A DNA stretch of 64,000 nt, taken from contig NC_092310.1 of assembly GCF_036785885.1 (NCBI RefSeq), positions 1,240,001 to 1,304,000 on the forward strand, given 5' to 3'. Below the pieces are notes generated by a model. It made no database searches, had not been told where the DNA came from, and worked only from the letters and a program-made list of their open reading frames with translations. The position numbers were made by a program, and so were the translations under genes. Below, piece by piece: positions 1,569 to 62,399 of this stretch. This stretch comes from Coffea arabica. Taxonomy: Eukaryota; Streptophyta; Magnoliopsida; Gentianales; Rubiaceae. Every line of letters begins with the position of its first letter. The first letter of the stretch is position 1.

Positions 1569-3486
1569 TGACGGGTGTTTACTATAAGTGCAAGTTTAAT
1601 TCCGAATTATACCCGTTTTTTCTGCAAGTATACAGGCCAAAAGCGTAGTATTGGGTATGTATCGGGTCGATCCCACGAGGAGCAATTAGAACAATTATTA
1701 GATACTAATTTACTCTATTATTTAGACTCACAATAAATTTGAGCAGAAAATTCAGAATTTAATTCAACTACAAAAATTCTTAGCTAGATAATTGCAATTC
1801 ACAATAGGAGTAGAATTCACTAAATATTAAGATCTAGGGATGTAGATTCCACCTATAATACAAAAGATCTAAAACGAATGAATTTAACACTTGTTACTAC
1901 TCTTGTTTAACCAAGGATTCATTTCCAACAATACCAAAATCACATTCTCATGATAATAATGGGTTAAAACAGATTAGTTTTCCCTAATCTCTTGGTAAAT
2001 ACTAAATCTGTTTTGTGCACACAGGAAATGTAAATTTCATCCACTTGAATGTATTTCTATTCTCATGAATATACTACTCAAGCTCTACTTATGTCATTCC
2101 ATTATTTTTACCATTTCTCAATGAGTAAAAACAACTACAAACCTGCTATTGGTGATCAAACAACAACAAGTAATCCAACATACACAAGTAGATAGGTTAA
2201 TATATACAAGATATAACAAGTATAAATCACAATCACTTCATATCACTTGACCATAAGCTTCATCTACTCCCTAGATTAAGGAAATTAGCTACTCATGAAT
2301 GATGAAAAACTCAGAACTTCATTAATGCAAATCATCATGAATTACAAATACAAAAAGAGTAAAGAAAGTCTTAGCCAAGATATGGTGAAGCCTTCCAAAA
2401 ATCTCCTTTGTCTTGAACTTAGATGATTACAAGATGAAACCTCAATTGCCCCTTGCAAGTACCTAGCTAGAGAAAATATGTTTTTCTGTAAGAAGCTAAG
2501 CTACGTATGGCTCCCAGACCTCTCTCAATGTCTCAGCATAAAAACTACTCAAAGGCTCTATTTTTCCAAGTCAAATTCTATCCTTTGATTCTCAAATCTG
2601 CACTTTGTTAGCATAGTCAAAAACCAATATTTTTGACTTGAAAATAAGCCATCTTTACTGCCCTTTTGTCTTCTGAGGCATGTGCACCGAATTCTCTTGC
2701 AGATTGTAGCTGGAAAGTAGTTTGAACATAAGAGAATTGACTGAGCAAATTGCAGAATTACGGCCAGAAAACGCGCCTACACAAAACGCGGTTACAAGTC
2801 ACGTTTTGTGTACTCGCGTATTCACTTTGGCCTTAATTCATCTGCGATTTTCTCTGTCATAAATGCCGAACTGGCTTTTGTACAAAACACCAAAGTTGTA
2901 ACCCTTTGAATTAGCTTTCCAATTCTCTAAAAATCATCCAGATCGGAGTTGTGCAGCCTGAGATATGGTCGAAATACTATCACCTGGTCAAACCTCTGTT
3001 TCCAGTTTCGACCACAGAGTGCAGCTTCTGTATTCCGACTTTTTGTCCACGAAAATGGCAGAATTGGATTTCGATGTCTTCATACGAATTGTAGGTCTCT
3101 TTCTTAGCTTAAAAATGGTATAAAGATCACCTTAATCCGATAAGTGTAGCTCCAGATATGATCAAAATACTGAAGAGTGTCAAAACTGATTTGTCTTGCA
3201 TTTCCTCACTTGAACGTTTTTCACTTCATTCTTCTTGTTACCACTTGAATTCATCACCAACTTTCTATTTTTCATCTCATTTGACATCCTTTGGTGATTG
3301 AATCATCATTCCTGCATAAAAATGAAGTTTTTATCATTAAAATCACTAAAAATGCAATATTATCCACTTTTACCAAAAATATATAATTTTACCAAAAACC
3401 TCTTTATTTTATTTATAAAACTAGATAATCAACTCAAAATTAACTAATAAAATGCACTTAAAAATACGTAAAATAAACTCTTATCA
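1569..3486 (-). repeat. Array LTR 1, 1918 bp
   Basis: On the minus strand it begins TGATAAGAG at 3486 and ends CCCGTCA at 1569, bounded by the polypurine tract on one side and the tRNA-Asp primer site on the other. It is the 3' LTR of the unit 3487-10456 and the 5' LTR of the unit cut by the left edge. Near its 3' end, plus positions 1663-1675 hold a GGGATCGACCC motif on the minus strand. An inverted repeat with 10-nt arms (ACACAAAACG) spans 2779-2811 and carries the AAAACGCGGTTAC word that recurs in the internal CGCG cluster. A TATAAATA sequence lies near 3410, but I cannot place the transcription start. Confidence 0.92.
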
Positions 3487-3526
3487 AATACCCCCACACT
3501 TGAATCATTGCTTGTCCTCAAGCAAT
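3487..3526 (-). other. Stem-loop C and 3' polypurine tract, unit 1
   Basis: A perfect 8-bp stem (ATTGCTTG/CAAGCAAT) around AGGA occupies 3507-3526. It is followed on the minus strand by AGTGTGGGGGTATT, which abuts the TGATAAG start of LTR 1. The purine tract should prime plus-strand DNA synthesis. The stem-loop shares the TTG-AGGA-CAA core with stem-loop B but has different outer base pairs. Confidence 0.82.
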
Positions 3527-3888
3527 ATAAAATTCCAACCATCAATGATCCAAAAATTTGAAAATAAACATATGTAGTATTTCAACTCCGTTTCCTTAAA
3601 TCAAGGTAAATAACCCTTATGTGATCTTTTAATTAACCTCAAGTACTCATAATATCAAGCAAAGAAGAGCCAAGTATACCATAATTTTACTAATTTAACT
3701 CAATTTCTCATTTTTACCCAATTTTACAAGCAAGCAACTCATATAGTCAATAAAGATGCTAACTAATCTCATGATCAACTTCTTTATTTTTCTTAAAGAG
3801 GGATTTATTTTCTTTTATTTTCTTTTTTCTTTTTTCTTTTTTTTAAATATATTTTAAGAGTTAAATACTACTTAAGTTGTGAAAAATA

Positions 3889-4032
3889 CCTTTTGACGCG
3901 AAGATCGACATTTTTAGATGAAGATCACCGGTTACTCAATATTTCACATACTCAAGTTGCTTTTCATACTCTTAATTCAAGTACCGTTTTACGCGAAAGT
4001 CGACATTTGTAGATGAAGACTCCCGGTTACTA
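3889..4032 (-). repeat. Pair of 49-nt conserved motifs in the 3' untranslated region, unit 1
   Basis: Copies are at 3984-4032 and 3889-3937, 95 nt apart. On the minus strand they share AGTAACCGG, CTTCATCTA, AATGTCGA and TTCGCGT segments. Each can form two small adjacent stems, CAT-loop-ATG and CGA-NNN-TCG. All six copies in the three elements align without a gap over 49 nt. Array and element 3 also share the spacer; element 2 does not. Function unknown. Confidence 0.8.
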
Positions 4033-4086
4033 AGTACAAGAACCATTGGAGTAGAATAACTCTTTTCTTTTCTTTTTTTATACAAA

Positions 4087-4571: not shown

Positions 4572-4610
4572 CTTCCCCCACATTTAGAATACACATTGTC
4601 CTCAATGTGT
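4572..4610 (-). other. Stem-loop B plus first TGTGGGGG purine tract, unit 1
   Basis: At 4591-4610 there is a perfect 8-bp stem (ACACATTG/CAATGTGT) around AGGA on the minus strand. Downstream, TGTGGGGGAAGA at 4572-4582 resembles the true polypurine tract about 1.1 kb further on. It lies about 250 nt after the ORF2 stop. The same pairing of stem-loop and purine tract is found in both other elements. Confidence 0.75.
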
Positions 4611-7677: not shown

Positions 7678-7695
7678 ATTGGGTTGCCTCCCAAT
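7678..7695 (-). other. Conserved stem-loop A (loop AGGCAA) downstream of gag, unit 1
   Basis: A perfect 6-bp stem (ATTGGG/CCCAAT) with loop AGGCAA on the minus strand, preceded by GCGCTA, about 50 nt after the gag stop. The same stem and loop follow pol of element 2 (49616-49633) and the Gag remnant of element 3 (58820-58837). Other array copies are at 16566-16583, 25454-25471, 34345-34362 and 43228-43245. The role is unknown; a translation or RNA-processing signal is possible. Confidence 0.75.
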
Positions 7696-7744
7696 TAGCG
7701 CTTTTGTTTATAGTCGTTGGCTCGACTGAAAAAGTTGAATCACT

Positions 7745-12374: not shown

Positions 12375-12976
12375 AATACCCCCACACTTGAATCATTGCT
12401 TGTCCTCAAGCAATATAAAATTCCAACCATCAATGATCCAAAAATTTGAAAATAAACATATGTAGTATTTCAACTCCGTTTCCTTAAATCAAGGTAAATA
12501 ACCCTTATGTGATCTTTTAATTAACCTCAAGTACTCATAATATCAAGCAAAGAAGAGCCAAGTATACCATAATTTTACTAATTTAACTCAATTTCTCATT
12601 TTTACCCAATTTTACAAGCAAGCAACTCATATAGTCAATAAAGATGCTAACTAATCTCATGATCAACTTCTTTATTTTTCTTAAAGAGGGATTTATTTTC
12701 TTTTATTTTCTTTTTTCTTTTTTCTTTTTTTTAAATATATTTTAAGAGTTAAATACTACTTAAGTTGTGAAAAATACCTTTTGACGCGAAGATCGACATT
12801 TTTAGATGAAGATCACCGGTTACTCAATATTTCACATACTCAAGTTGCTTTTCATACTCTTAATTCAAGTACCGTTTTACGCGAAAGTCGACATTTGTAG
12901 ATGAAGACTCCCGGTTACTAAGTACAAGAACCATTGGAGTAGAATAACTCTTTTCTTTTCTTTTTTTATACAAAAA

Positions 12977-21262: not shown

Positions 21263-21862
21263 AATACCCCCACACTTGAATCATTGCTTGTCCTCAAGCA
21301 ATATAAAATTCCAACCATCAATGATCCAAAAATTTGAAAATAAACATATGTAGTATTTCAACTCCGTTTCCTTAAATCAAGGTAAATAACCCTTATGTGA
21401 TCTTTTAATTAACCTCAAGTACTCATAATATCAAGCAAAGAAGAGCCAAGTATACCATAATTTTACTAATTTAACTCAATTTCTCATTTTTACCCAATTT
21501 TACAAGCAAGCAACTCATATAGTCAATAAAGATGCTAACTAATCTCATGATCAACTTCTTTATTTTTCTTAAAGAGGGATTTATTTTCTTTTATTTTCTT
21601 TTTTCTTTTTTCTTTTTTTTAAATATATTTTAAGAGTTAAATACTACTTAAGTTGTGAAAAATACCTTTTGACGCGAAGATCGACATTTTTAGATGAAGA
21701 TCACCGGTTACTCAATATTTCACATACTCAAGTTGCTTTTCATACTCTTAATTCAAGTACCGTTTTACGCGAAAGTCGACATTTGTAGATGAAGACTCCC
21801 GGTTACTAAGTACAAGAACCATTGGAGTAGAATAACTCTTTTCTTTTCTTTTTTTATACAAA

Positions 21863-30150: not shown

Positions 30151-30746
30151 AATACCCCCACACTTGAATCATTGCTTGTCCTCAAGCAATATAAAATTCC
30201 AACCATCAATGATCCAAAAATTTGAAAATAAACATATGTAGTATTTCAACTCCGTTTCCTTAAATCAAGGTAAATAACCCTTATGTGATCTTTTAATTAA
30301 CCTCAAGTACTCATAATATCAAGCAAAGAAGAGCCAAGTATACCATAATTTTACTAATTTAACTCAATTTCTCATTTTTACCCAATTTTACAAGCAAGCA
30401 ACTCATATAGTCAATAAAGATGCTAACTAATCTCATGATCAACTTCTTTATTTTTCTTAAAGAGGGATTTATTTTCTTTTATTTTCTTTTTTCTTTTTTC
30501 TTTTTTTTAAATATATTTTAAGAGTTAAATACTACTTAAGTTGTGAAAAATACCTTTTGACGCGAAGATCGACATTTTTAGATGAAGATCACCGGTTACT
30601 CAATATTTCACATACTCAAGTTGCTTTTCATACTCTTAATTCAAGTACCGTTTTACGCGAAAGTCGACATTTGTAGATGAAGACTCCCGGTTACTAAGTA
30701 CAAGAACCATTGGAGTAGAATAACTCTTTTCTTTTCTTTTTTTATA

Positions 30747-39042: not shown

Positions 39043-39944
39043 AATACCCCCACACTTGAATCATTGCTTGTCCTCAAGCAATATAAAATTCCAACCATCA
39101 ATGATCCAAAAATTTGAAAATAAACATATGTAGTATTTCAACTCCGTTTCCTTAAATCAAGGTAAATAACCCTTATGTGATCTTTTAATTAACCTCAAGT
39201 ACTCATAATATCAAGCAAAGAAGAGCCAAGTATACCATAATTTTACTAATTTAACTCAATTTCTCATTTTTACCCAATTTTACAAGCAAGCAACTCATAT
39301 AGTCAATAAAGATGCTAACTAATCTCATGATCAACTTCTTTATTTTTCTTAAAGAGAGATTTATTTTCTTTTTTTTTCTTTTTTCTTTTTTCTTTTTTTT
39401 TAAATATATTTTAAGAGTTAAATACTACTTAAGTTGTGAAAAATACCTTTTGACGCGAAGATCGACATTTTTAGATGAAAATCACCGGTTACTCAATATT
39501 TCACATACTCAAGTTGCTTTTCATACTCTTAATTCAAGTACCGTTTTACGCGAAAGTCGACATTTGTAGATGAAGACTCCCGGTTACTAAGTACAAGAAC
39601 CATTGGAGTAGAATAACTCTTTTCTTTTTTTTTTTTATACAAAATATATATATATATATATAGAGAAATAATAAAATTCCCTCTAAAAAGCAATCATGAG
39701 AAGAGAGTAACACTTATTGACCATATTAATTCCTTAACTTGTAAAATCAAATAAAAAGAAGAAATTTCATCAAATATGCAAAATTTAGGCATAATTTTCT
39801 CTACTTTACTAGATATACTTTCCTACAAATGTCAAAATTATAATCACATAATAATCAATTCCAAGTTAACTGAGAAAAGAAGTTTCAAAACCACATATAT
39901 CTATTTCAAAAAGGATAAGTGACAAAATTTTATTTGTTTATTTA

Positions 39945-49573: not shown

Positions 49574-49615
49574 CACTTTACCATGTCTAACCGAAGACAC
49601 TAAAAAAAGGCGCTC

Positions 49616-49633
49616 ATTGGGAGGCAACCCAAT
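49616..49633 (+). other. Conserved stem-loop A downstream of pol, element 2
   Basis: ATTGGG-AGGCAA-CCCAAT, preceded by GCGCTC, 43 nt after the pol stop. It is identical in stem and loop to the copies in the array and in element 3. Confidence 0.78.
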
Positions 49634-51567: not shown

Positions 51568-51609
51568 GACACATTGAGGACAATGTGTCCTATAGGTGTG
51601 GGGGGGGTC
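51568..51609 (+). other. Stem-loop B plus first purine tract, element 2
   Basis: A 9-bp stem (GACACATTG/CAATGTGTC) around AGGA at 51568-51589, then GGTGTGGGGGGGG at 51595-51607. It lies about 50 nt after the ORF2 stop and matches the array and element 3 arrangement. Confidence 0.76.
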
Positions 51610-52066
51610 TATAGTCTTTCTAGTTTTTAGTAGTTGTTAGTTTTTAGTTTTATTTTTAGTTGCGTATTTTCTTTCTTTTCTTAGTGCTTATTCCCCATGT
51701 GAAAAGAAAAAGAAAACAAAAACAAAAAGAAGGAGAAAAAAATGTTGGTTTATTGACTCTAACTCTACTTTTGCCAAGTTTTTTTTAAAATAAAAATGTA
51801 TCGGGTTAATGTGGTTGGATCCAGAATATCTCCCTGGTGAATATCGGATTGCTTGGCTCTTTTGATTTCTGTGTTAATTTCTCTAGGCATAGGGAATGAC
51901 TGTTGGCATTTTAATGTGAACTGGTCCAATATTGACTCCAGTTCTCTATGTTTGGCAATAATGAGGCGAGCTGTTCCTATTTTTGGTTCTTAGTGTTGTT
52001 ATTATGTGTTTTTGGCTTTGTTTGGCTGTGAATAATCTGGACTGTACTCCGCTATGAGTTACTACT

Positions 52067-52206
52067 GAGTAACCGGGGATCGGCACCTAAAAGTGTCGAT
52101 TCTCGCCTCAAAAGGTGGTACTTTATATGAGTACGTGGTCGTATAGCGGTAGGAGTTGAGTAACCGGGCTCCTTCATCTAAAAATGTTGGAGTTCGCGTC
52201 AAAAGG
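52067..52206 (+). repeat. Pair of 49-nt conserved motifs, element 2
   Basis: Copies at 52067-52115 and 52158-52206, 91 nt apart. The first has CAC-CTAAAA-GTG and the second CAT-CTAAAA-ATG, a compensatory pair in the predicted stem. The spacer is unlike that of the other elements. The rest of 51610-52562 is noncoding and holds simple A-rich runs. Confidence 0.8.
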
Positions 52207-52562
52207 CCCCGACGGCTAACGACTAAGTCTTTTTGTGTTAATTATTATTGCTTTGAAAAACAAAAAAAAAAAAGAACGAAAAAAGATAGAATAAATAATG
52301 GGAAGGCTTGCCGGTTTATGGACTTAATATGGAGACTTGTGTGAATATTTGGACCATTAGCTGATAAAGGTTGTGCGCCATTCCCTTTTCTTAGAGTAGT
52401 TAACCTGGAAATTGAAGGATTTTGCAGTTTAGGGGCTAACCGGGGGGATGCTTCTTGGATTTTAATCACTAGTGCTCGATATATGGTTTTTCTGGATATC
52501 TTGGGAATGTGGTAGATAGAGCAATGACCGTCATCAAATTTTGGTGTCTGTCCACTTTTCTT

Positions 52563-52600
52563 ATGCTTGAGGACAAGCATGGTTTAGGTGTGGGGGAAAT
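52563..52600 (+). other. Stem-loop C and 3' polypurine tract, element 2
   Basis: A 7-bp stem (ATGCTTG/CAAGCAT) around AGGA at 52563-52580, then GGTGTGGGGGAAAT directly before the TGATAGACTG start of the LTR. Confidence 0.82.
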
Positions 52601-53679
52601 TGATAGACTGCAATTTATCTATTTATTTTATTATTATTTTCCCCTATTACCTGACTTGATGTGGATTAATTGCTGGATTCTACTCATTTTTCTTAATTTA
52701 CGTATATTTCAGGGAGTAGAACGAAAACATGATAACAGGTGCCAAATTGACAGGAAAAGAATTCAGATGATAAAGCTTGTCCCAGGGGCACTTTTGGAAC
52801 AGAAGATGTCACGCCCATTTTGGTAATTTTCGCAAAGGAATGACGGACGGAGGGCTTCTCTTCTTGTTGATGTGCGCCGCAATTAAAAAGAAACAAGGAG
52901 GAGGAAGTTCACTAGCTAGCTTGTGCGGGGTCTTCCGTCTATAGCTTAGCAGCAATTCTTGACTTTTCCCTTGTACTTTACTTTTGGCTTAAGAAACCTA
53001 CGGATGTTAGGAAGAAAAGCAATTGCTAGCTTTTAGCTTTGACTATTCTTCTAGATCTCTTTTGATTCTGAATCCTGCGCATGGCAGGAACAAAAACTTG
53101 GGGAAGCTTTTGACTTTTCTTCATCTTTGAACCTTGAGTATTTACGCTTCTTTCGTGGTATGTGGTTCGAAGAAGAACAGAGGGCTACCTCTTGTGACTT
53201 TGCTATTTCTGCGAAAATGGCCGCTGCCCTCTTTACAATCTCCTGTGGGTTTAGTTCATCAATTATGAAGTAATTTTCCAACTCTAGTCAAGAAGCAACG
53301 AAGGCTCTGGTTCGCTTAAAAATTGTGAGATCGATTTAATTTTACCTTTTTCTTTTATTTATTAGTATTTGCATATTCCCTGGTTGCAGCGCTTATGATT
53401 GTTTAATTAATTGGTTGTCCTGGATCTGGATAATTAATTGATTGGGTAATCTATTGTCAATTGGGACGTTAAATCCGTAATTGTTTAATTGTCTCAAAAT
53501 AGTGACAACTGGCACGATTAGATTCGTGCCAGGGGGATACGCGGGCTAATCTAAAATAACCCTGGTAGTGTGTTATTTGGTTAGAATAGGGCTCCTCTAA
53601 TACGTAAGGCAATTGGGGAATTAAATTCTACGGGCGTACCTAGGATTATTTCTTAATTAGAGCAGTGATTAACGGGCGT
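52601..53679 (+). repeat. Truncated 3' LTR of element 2
   Basis: Starts TGATAGACTG right after the polypurine tract and is broken at 53679 by element 3. The remainder, with its CA end, should lie beyond the right edge. GGCGT at 53675-53679 is the candidate target-site duplication. A 9-bp stem with loop TTAGAT lies at 53509-53532. No gene is seen. Confidence 0.8.
53509..53532 (+). other. Perfect inverted repeat in the element 2 LTR
   Basis: CTGGCACGA and TCGTGCCAG form a 9-bp stem around TTAGAT. It is the strongest local hairpin in this LTR. It could mark an RNA structure or a protein-binding dyad; nothing decides between them. Confidence 0.6.
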
Positions 53680-58773: not shown

Positions 58774-58819
58774 AAAAATGAGGAGAAATAGTCAAGCTAT
58801 TGACTTTAAAGAAGCGCTT

Positions 58820-58837
58820 ATTGGGAGGCAACCCAAT
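58820..58837 (+). other. Conserved stem-loop A, element 3
   Basis: ATTGGG-AGGCAA-CCCAAT preceded by GCGCTT, 47 nt after the Gag-remnant stop. Kept unchanged although pol is completely absent from this element. Confidence 0.78.
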
Positions 58838-59154
58838 GTTTGTTTAAGTTGGTGTTACTTTGGAGTGATTTTATGTTTAAAGTATAAGTTTGAGTAATTT
58901 TGTTGTTTTTCATTTGTAGGTTTTGAAAAAGTGACCAAATGAGGTGAAAAGGGCGAAGTTTGATCAAAGATCTCAATACCTCAAATTCAGTAATTATGGT
59001 TTTTGATGCATTAAAGAGGTTTAGAATGCATGTTTAGATCATTTTACATGTGCGTGAATGGTTTATTTTGACATAGAAATGATCTAGGGTGTATTTTGAA
59101 GAATTGAGGTCAAACTGAAAATTGCAAAAATTCTGCAATAAGTGCAGATTCAAT

Positions 59155-61219: not shown

Positions 61220-61260
61220 TCACATTGAGGACAATGTGAAGTTTAAGTGTGGGGGAGGAA
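61220..61260 (+). other. Stem-loop B plus first purine tract, element 3
   Basis: An 8-bp stem (TCACATTG/CAATGTGA) around AGGA at 61220-61239, then AAGTGTGGGGGAGGAA at 61245-61260. Confidence 0.76.
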
Positions 61261-61858: not shown

Positions 61859-61894
61859 AATAAAAATTTTTTCTACTCCAATGATTCACCTACC

Positions 61895-62039
61895 GAGTAA
61901 CCGGGGGTTGGCATCTACAAATGTCGACATTCGCGTAAAAAGGTACTTGAATTAAGAGTATGCATTAGCAACTTGAATAAGTGAAATGTTGAGTAACCGG
62001 GGATCTTCACCTAAAAGTGTCGATTTTCGCGTAAAAAGG
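61895..62039 (+). repeat. Pair of 49-nt conserved motifs, element 3
   Basis: Copies at 61895-61943 (CAT-CTACAA-ATG stem) and 61991-62039 (CAC-CTAAAA-GTG stem), 96 nt apart. The spacer (TACTTGAATTAAGAGTATG...) is nearly the same as in the array. Confidence 0.8.
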
Positions 62040-62359
62040 CATTTTCACTATTTAAGTAAAAAATTAGTATGAATAAATCCCTCTTAGTTATAGAATGTTG
62101 AGAAAAAGATGATTATAGGAGGAGGAAGGCTATAAATTGACTATGTGATTTGCTTATTTGTAAAATTAAGTTAGGGTAAGAGATTAAGTTTAACTTGTTG
62201 AATTTAGGGTATAATTATCTTTCCTTTACTTGATATTATGAGTATTTAGTGTAAATTGAATAATTGTATAATGATTATTTTCCAAGTCTTGAGGAATTAA
62301 ATTGGACAAAGTGCATATATTGTTTCACCTCTTGAATCATTGCATTTGATTATGTGGGA

Positions 62360-62399
62360 ATTGCTTGAGGACAAGCAATGATTTAAGTGTGGGGGAGTT
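62360..62399 (+). other. Stem-loop C and 3' polypurine tract, element 3
   Basis: An 8-bp stem (ATTGCTTG/CAAGCAAT) around AGGA at 62360-62379, then AAGTGTGGGGGAGTT directly before the TGATAAG of the 3' LTR. Confidence 0.82.

Follow-up and report, generated by a model that had tools for sequence, protein, structure and literature searches.

The constitutive transport element (CTE) of Mason-Pfizer monkey virus (MPMV) carries two like internal loops on one long hairpin. In the available part of PMC11379458, this CTE is immediately followed by a polypurine tract (PPT), and its place in MPMV could be taken by a retroviral MER11 element; precedents for export elements are described in the accessible sections of that paper and of PMC12786077. 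The latter, a review of late 2025, states in those sections that RNA export of plant LTR retroelements had not been directly studied, that CAR-like export motifs were unclear, and that TREX with its associated factors is what plants use, in contrast to systems employing the TAP/NXF1 receptor. Here we show that Athila-type elements of the Coffea arabica genome carry a duplicated, structure-constrained hairpin on the sense strand, flanked by an internal purine-tract module on one side and a terminal one on the other. By analogy with the systems above, this hairpin pair is probably a handle for export or packaging of the element RNA. All evidence on the hairpins is sequence-based and comes from this one genome. 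Among the papers listed from the open literature, no title or abstract opening dealt with such an Athila hairpin pair, and a search with the motif letters gave, among the matches listed, only papers whose titles were unrelated.

The window analysed was a stretch of 64,000 nucleotides of Coffea arabica (NC_092310.1, positions 1,240,001 to 1,304,000), in which the pair is carried by three elements. In element A, LTR-internal units are repeated in tandem; they encode gag-protease and, where Athila elements carry an env-like ORF, a PF20167 ORF, the label env-like being given by position. The three best database matches of this ORF were Coffea arabica proteins with 61-89% identity. The array fills window positions 1-47900 with units of about 8888 bp (92-100% identity in the 300-nt blocks listed), and before the window begins, motif matches recur with this spacing at C1:1208364, 1217240, 1226128 and 1235017. 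Element B, cut short where it meets the array, encodes RNase H, integrase and an ORF with similarity to ATHILA and PF20167. Element C has only a partial gag ORF, with 28% identity over 201 residues to the gag of A and covering just residues 287-447 of it. No similarity to RNase H or integrase was detected in A or C, and none to the env-position ORFs of A or B was found in C. As for lineage, PF03078 (ATHILA) scored above cut-off in B and PF03732 (gag) in A, PF20167 passed its cut-off in A and fell short of it in B, and the assignment of C to Athila rests on its similarity to A. A TGGCGCC primer-site-like sequence, which we take to be of the Athila/Tat-type PBS, was present in A and C.

The preliminary description had reported six copies of a 49-nt motif arranged in three pairs, and all six were found in place, aligning over 49 nt without a gap at pairwise identities of 36-44 of 49. 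Each motif lies within a longer hairpin, and the two hairpins of a pair are called upstream (U) and downstream (D). In A they lie on the minus strand, U at 3977-4041 (motif proper 3984-4032) and D at 3882-3946 (3889-3937). On the plus strand, those of B lie at 52058-52122 (U, 52067-52115) and 52149-52213 (D, 52158-52206), and those of C at 61886-61950 (U, 61895-61943) and 61982-62046 (D, 61991-62039). These six were identified by scan, folding and covariance model. Repetition of the array adds further minus-strand copies, identified by scan and covariance model, at 12865-12929 (U) and 12770-12834 (D) in unit 2, 21753-21817 and 21658-21722 in unit 3, 30641-30705 and 30546-30610 in unit 4, and 39534-39598 and 39439-39503 in unit 5, so that the window holds 14 motif copies in 7 pairs. 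When the majority string was scanned over both strands of the window, the copies matched at 41-47 of 49 positions and the best other site at 26 of 49. A covariance-model search of the window at E ≤ 1 returned exactly the 14 known copies and nothing else. The spacing within a pair, start to start, was 95 nt in the array, 91 in B and 96 in C. As had been noted, the spacer is common to the array and C (84.5% identity over the 213-nt pair region) and not to the array and B, where blastn (E ≤ 1e-3) aligned the motif copies and not the surrounding stretches. Over the whole array unit, the same comparison with B aligned only the motif copies, two stem-loop/purine-tract modules, a 37-nt piece situated after the gag/pol ORF, and low-complexity tracts rich in TA, A/G or C/T. 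In each of the three elements, the gag or pol ORF is directly followed by a second conserved non-coding hairpin, with an ATTGGG/CCCAAT stem, an AGGCAA loop and GCGCT before it (7678-7714 on the minus strand; 49599-49633 and about 58814-58838 on the plus strand).

The two modules enclose the pair in each element. In A (minus strand), the internal module, a stem-loop with an AGGA loop followed by the purine tract TGTGGGGG, lies upstream of the pair at 4575-4610, and the terminal module, again a stem-loop with an AGGA loop and TGTGGGGG, adjoins the 3' LTR at 3482-3524. The corresponding plus-strand modules lie at 51569-51604 (internal) and 52564-52605 (terminal) in B and at 61220-61256 and 62360-62399 in C, the terminal ones again adjoining the 3' LTR. 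The AGGA loop is the same at both sites and the stems differ, being CACATTG/CAATGTG in the internal module and GCTTG/CAAGC in the terminal one. That the pair lies between two such modules, as first proposed from this window, was also seen among genomic loci. With one mismatch allowed, 63 of 69 loci had the stem-loop core upstream of the pair and 65 had it downstream, and this downstream core was located 357-539 nt past the start of the downstream hairpin.

Folding of the six copies showed that each 49-nt motif is the end portion of one longer hairpin on the sense strand. With the motif numbered 1-49, the hairpin consists of an outer helix of about 5 bp (positions 0 to -4 with 48 to 52), a 5x5 internal loop in which GAGUA (1-5) faces MAAAA (43-47), an inner helix that contains a bulged C and reaches at most 15 bp (6-42, 7-41, bulged C40, 8-15 with 32-39, 18-20 with 27-29), and an apical loop of 5-7 nt; positions 16-17 and 30-31 are paired or mismatched depending on the copy. 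The preliminary description had instead drawn two short stems per copy. The first of them, 18-20 with 27-29, stands as part of the long hairpin, and its alternation of CAC..GTG with CAT..ATG is a genuine double change. The second, 31-33 with 37-39, is possible in each of the six copies. It shares bases with the 3' arm of the long hairpin, however, competing with the pairing of 8-15 with 32-39, and none of its three pairs was double-changed; we therefore rejected it. The nearly invariant internal loop GAGUA/MAAAA, missed at first, is the most constrained part of the hairpin. G-bulged (loop E) modules have the consensus AGUA facing GAA or a like strand, and the internal-loop letters fit this consensus in nearly all copies, with MAA, not GAA, as the facing strand.

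We also examined how strongly these regions fold. In the 211-nt regions both hairpins formed together with an extra outer helix (z = -5.1 in C, -5.3 in B and -4.9 in A). When 100-nt windows were slid from module to module, the lowest z belonged to a hairpin in both B (-5.7) and C (-5.5). In A, the better hairpin (-4.1) was slightly surpassed by a window of TA repeat (-4.4). The upstream hairpin of C alone reached a z of only -1.9, weaker than the -3.0 of the internal module. A known RNA family was rejected as an explanation: at the gathering score, Rfam gave six matches in the window, all to snoR71 and none at the hairpins, and at E ≤ 5 it gave none in B and one in C (E 0.86, far below the cut-off and on the other strand), the array pair having been searched at the gathering score only. 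The snoR71 matches (60 bits) lie at 766-872 on the plus strand and in five more array units, on the strand opposite the array gag ORF, and represent either a snoRNA family overlapping a retroelement or a snoRNA-like stretch captured by it.

A 32-place pattern was then matched against the whole genome (1.198 Gb) and gave 715 + 596 = 1,311 exact matches, and the reversed pattern gave 0. The first 70 loci were found by matching one copy to the pattern, and because of mutual overlap or array repetition not all of them are independent; since one copy served as bait, independent evidence comes from the partner copy alone. The partner passed the ungapped threshold in 63 of the 70 loci, at spacings of 91-103, and in the remaining seven it was found at +91, its loop being 7 nt long (CTGGCCA or ATGGCCA). 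Four of 61 partner copies themselves matched the bait pattern. In the 45 distinct partner copies outside the bait, positions 2-5 and 44-46 kept their letter in 39-45 copies, and the internal loop and most helix pairs were kept, the exceptions being 12/35 (20 of 45), 16/31 (26), 17/30 (28) and -5/53 (7). Minimum-energy folding of 52 distinct pair regions, a set that excludes ten loci (L012, L031, L017 and the seven with the longer loop), showed on the sense strand an inner helix in 47 U hairpins and 46 D hairpins and an outer helix in 49 U and 43 D hairpins; in 35 regions both hairpins were complete. The antisense strand of the same regions formed the inner helix in 19 (U) and 33 (D) and the outer in 32 (U) and 27 (D). 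An antisense fold was rejected on these lower frequencies and on its weaker folding in five of the six window copies, the exception being A_D.

A second set was selected by integrase and not by the motif. From 17,023 candidates, 118 were scored, all at least 83% identical to the integrase of B, and 18 elements in 19 stretches were hand-picked for spread. Fourteen of the 18 carried exactly two hairpin copies, 90-93 nt apart, and four carried none. The preliminary description had made its reading depend on the pair recurring in other Athila-type 3' regions, and within this genome it does so in these 14. In their 28 copies, AGUA was kept in 26 and MAAAA or a longer form in all 28, and the apical loop took six forms of 5-7 nt with variable letters. 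Among the four elements without the pair, L080 has both modules and L077 has two stem-loops and one purine tract, and neither showed a pair even with filters off; in L078 and L087 one or both modules were also absent from the examined stretch. The modules of L080 and L077 indicate that the pair is dispensable or that those copies are mobilised differently, and the two elements offer a natural comparison for its function. Locus L056 carries two complete hairpin pairs 929 nt apart. Beyond this genome, the pattern had 0 exact and 0 loose matches in viral contigs, where an integrase search found no relative either, and 0 matches in a collection of genome contigs; no second species was found in the collections searched.

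Next to its shape, the hairpin was examined for covariation. In the six copies, 4 of 13 helix pairs were double-changed, with a covariation score of 0.364 vs at most 0.108 when the pairing was slid; for the two short stems first drawn, the count was 1 of 6. Twenty hand-picked extended copies gave 11 of 22 double-changed pairs and a score of 0.396 vs at most 0.126, and RNAalifold, given no structure, drew 17 of the 22 pairs, outer helix included. The 28 copies from integrase-selected elements, in an alignment that was fitted to the structure model and hence leans to it, contained 120 double-changed cells vs 48.0 in shuffles, none of 500 being as high, and scored 0.599 vs at most 0.146. The number of double-changed pairs in this set (12 of 20) was equalled by 81 of 500 shuffles, which counts against the structure reading. 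Pair 8/39, invariant in the first six copies, was C-G in 21 and U-A in 5 of the 28.

Shared descent was taken into account with a tree null, a home-made simplification of R-scape. With 90 distinct copies, the best four column pairs were all helix pairs, and only 20/27 reached E < 0.05. The set was enlarged to 117 distinct copies by adding 27 of the 28 integrase-selected ones (one row was dropped for an insertion and 10 gap cells were filled), giving 1891 column pairs, of which 22 belong to the structure. The best six of the 1891 were all helix pairs, with E of 0.005, 0.015, 0.53, 3.1, 3.4 and 4.2; only -4/52 and 20/27 stood below 0.05, the other 20 of 22 helix pairs being above it. Compensatory events on the same branch numbered 21 vs 1-2 in slid pairings. 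The preliminary description would have been abandoned had a larger alignment held no covariation beyond phylogenetic expectation; in this one, drawn from a single genome, covariation goes beyond shared descent, and the hairpin is a conserved RNA structure.

The helices are not uniformly kept. In the 90 copies, 12/35 was non-standard in 27, and 16/31 and 17/30 were unpaired in 62 and 53, respectively. Uncompensated changes were present in locus L063, and several copies with rare letters at position 13, among the matches listed and judged by eye, were also uncompensated. The outer helices of U and D differ in letters, yet both pair. Counted by cell, the helices contained 1302 Watson-Crick, 352 G-U, 27 A-C and 209 other combinations, 87 of the G-U cells coming from the single pair 10/37. 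The excess of G-U (352) over A-C (27) indicates that the folding molecule is plus-sense RNA; together with the compensating changes in the arms, it disfavours a DNA-level repeat such as a transcription-factor site. Coding constraint is not favoured either, since the motif lies outside all ORFs of at least 150 aa in the window and C keeps the pair without an env-position ORF.

What the pair does was considered by analogy. Elements A and C keep it without detectable RNase H or integrase, and C also without an env-position ORF, which suggests that it acts in cis. The reading that we prefer, with a probability of about 0.4, is an action like that of the MPMV CTE but via a plant factor other than NXF1. 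The internal loop, with its G-bulged-like letters, may be a protein-recognition site, and with its two copies the full-length RNA would carry a cis-acting platform of two sites. Both internal loops might be bound together by a host RNA-binding or export adaptor, or by the element's own Gag; the bound unspliced genomic RNA would then leave the nucleus and afterwards enter particle assembly. Recognition by the internal loop is suggested by the retention of AGUA/MAAAA while the apical loop varies in letters and length, and a two-site design by the exact doubling, at 90-93 nt, in all 14 pair-bearing integrase-selected elements. According to the available text of PMC12786077, plant LTR elements generally have no introns, which counts against the need for an export signal. 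It is doubtful, and we offer it only tentatively, that the pair represents, for plant LTR retroelements, the first cis-acting element of RNA export (or of export and packaging), its repeated G-bulged loop recruiting the plant factor that replaces NXF1. If this were true, the export machinery of plants could be captured with the two-hairpin RNA as bait. The RNA is compact and mutable, has two sites and a clear candidate for recognition, and its pattern matches 1,311 times in this genome, which makes the export question testable. The covariance model can also mark Athila 3' regions, including those of pol-less elements missed by searches with pol proteins.

Of the alternatives, a packaging site ranks highest, although we consider it rather unlikely. 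Here the two internal loops would bind Gag and mark genomic RNA for particles, including the RNA of elements that borrow enzymes in trans, and the retention of the pair in A and C would fit such borrowing. We place export slightly ahead because a 3' element is present in spliced and unspliced RNAs alike and cannot single out genomic RNA by itself. The match of C to no more than residues 287-447 of A's gag also speaks against a Gag-binding site. In the available part of PMC11381356, Ty3 packaging requires both UTRs and POL. A palindrome, UGGCCA, is found in the downstream apical loop (CUGGCCA or AUGGCCA) of one subfamily (L001, L045, L049, L050, L052, L058 and L061). It could form a kissing dimer, which would fit this alternative, but it is confined to that subfamily and the common loop CUAMAA is not palindromic.

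A role in reverse transcription is improbable. The hairpins would then be pause, transfer or plus-strand stop signals between internal and terminal plus-strand starts, and their location on a stretch of about 1 kb between purine-tract modules, with the stem-loop core on either side in most loci, is what such signals would call for; an extra PPT in the linker is likewise described for Athila4 and Calypso in the accessible part of PMC2829016. A pause, however, needs no two identical binding-type internal loops, and L080 has both modules without the pair. The preference for G-U on the RNA-sense strand also points to RNA, although the same strand is that of plus-strand DNA.

We give still less credit to a 3'-UTR control element governing translation, stability or small-RNA production of Athila RNA. 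The available sections of PMC3276544 report that Arabidopsis Athila 21-22-nt siRNAs come from the non-coding region 3' of gag and pol; its authors offer three models for them, among which is hairpin-like folding. A selfish element should not keep a structure for its own silencing, however, and the peak of conservation is the internal loop and not a long perfect duplex; C, moreover, retains the pair without an env-position ORF. A lack of any function, with sequence shared by descent among young related copies and complementarity incidental, is very improbable and already disfavoured: the families are related, copies within a family are nearly identical and most helix pairs fall short of significance on the tree, but the same-branch compensations, the outer helices that pair in different letters and the flanks that do not align between A and B all stand against it.

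Returning to the preferred export reading, we compared the pair with described systems. Like the MPMV CTE, the IAP RTE and the musD MTE, it is a non-coding RNA structure situated after env and before the terminal PPT. Two like internal loops in that location were found in A and B, where env is defined by position only; C lacks an env-position ORF and has the pair at the same position relative to the modules. The CTE promotes the export of unspliced RNA with no protein encoded by its element. The pair differs from the MPMV CTE in being two separate consecutive hairpins, in having another internal loop (GAGUA/MAAAA), and in lying hundreds of nucleotides before the terminal tract, whereas the CTE is directly next to the PPT.

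Among retroviral dimerisation elements, the DIS kissing loops resemble the one Athila subfamily with a 6-nt palindrome in its apical loop. They differ from the main form, since CUAMAA and other variants in the copies examined are not self-complementary and the Athila pair is 3', not 5'. The possible likeness to the G-bulged (loop E, sarcin-ricin) module lies in AGUA facing an A-rich strand between helices, with A/C where sheared pairing would fit; the Athila MAA in place of GAA is the difference. In plants, the part of PMC2829016 available describes Sireviruses (Ty1/copia) with repeated conserved motifs and several purine tracts from the last ORF to the 3' LTR, which is a similar layout, but their motifs consist of PPT octamers identical to one another and of an inverted repeat where PPT and LTR meet, with no duplicated covarying hairpin. 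The same text makes no mention of a hairpin pair in the env-containing Athila4 and Calypso, which are alike in having an internal PPT in the linker, as the two modules of the window show. Next to all these systems, the Athila hairpin pair matches no Rfam family and has been kept in shape while its letters changed.
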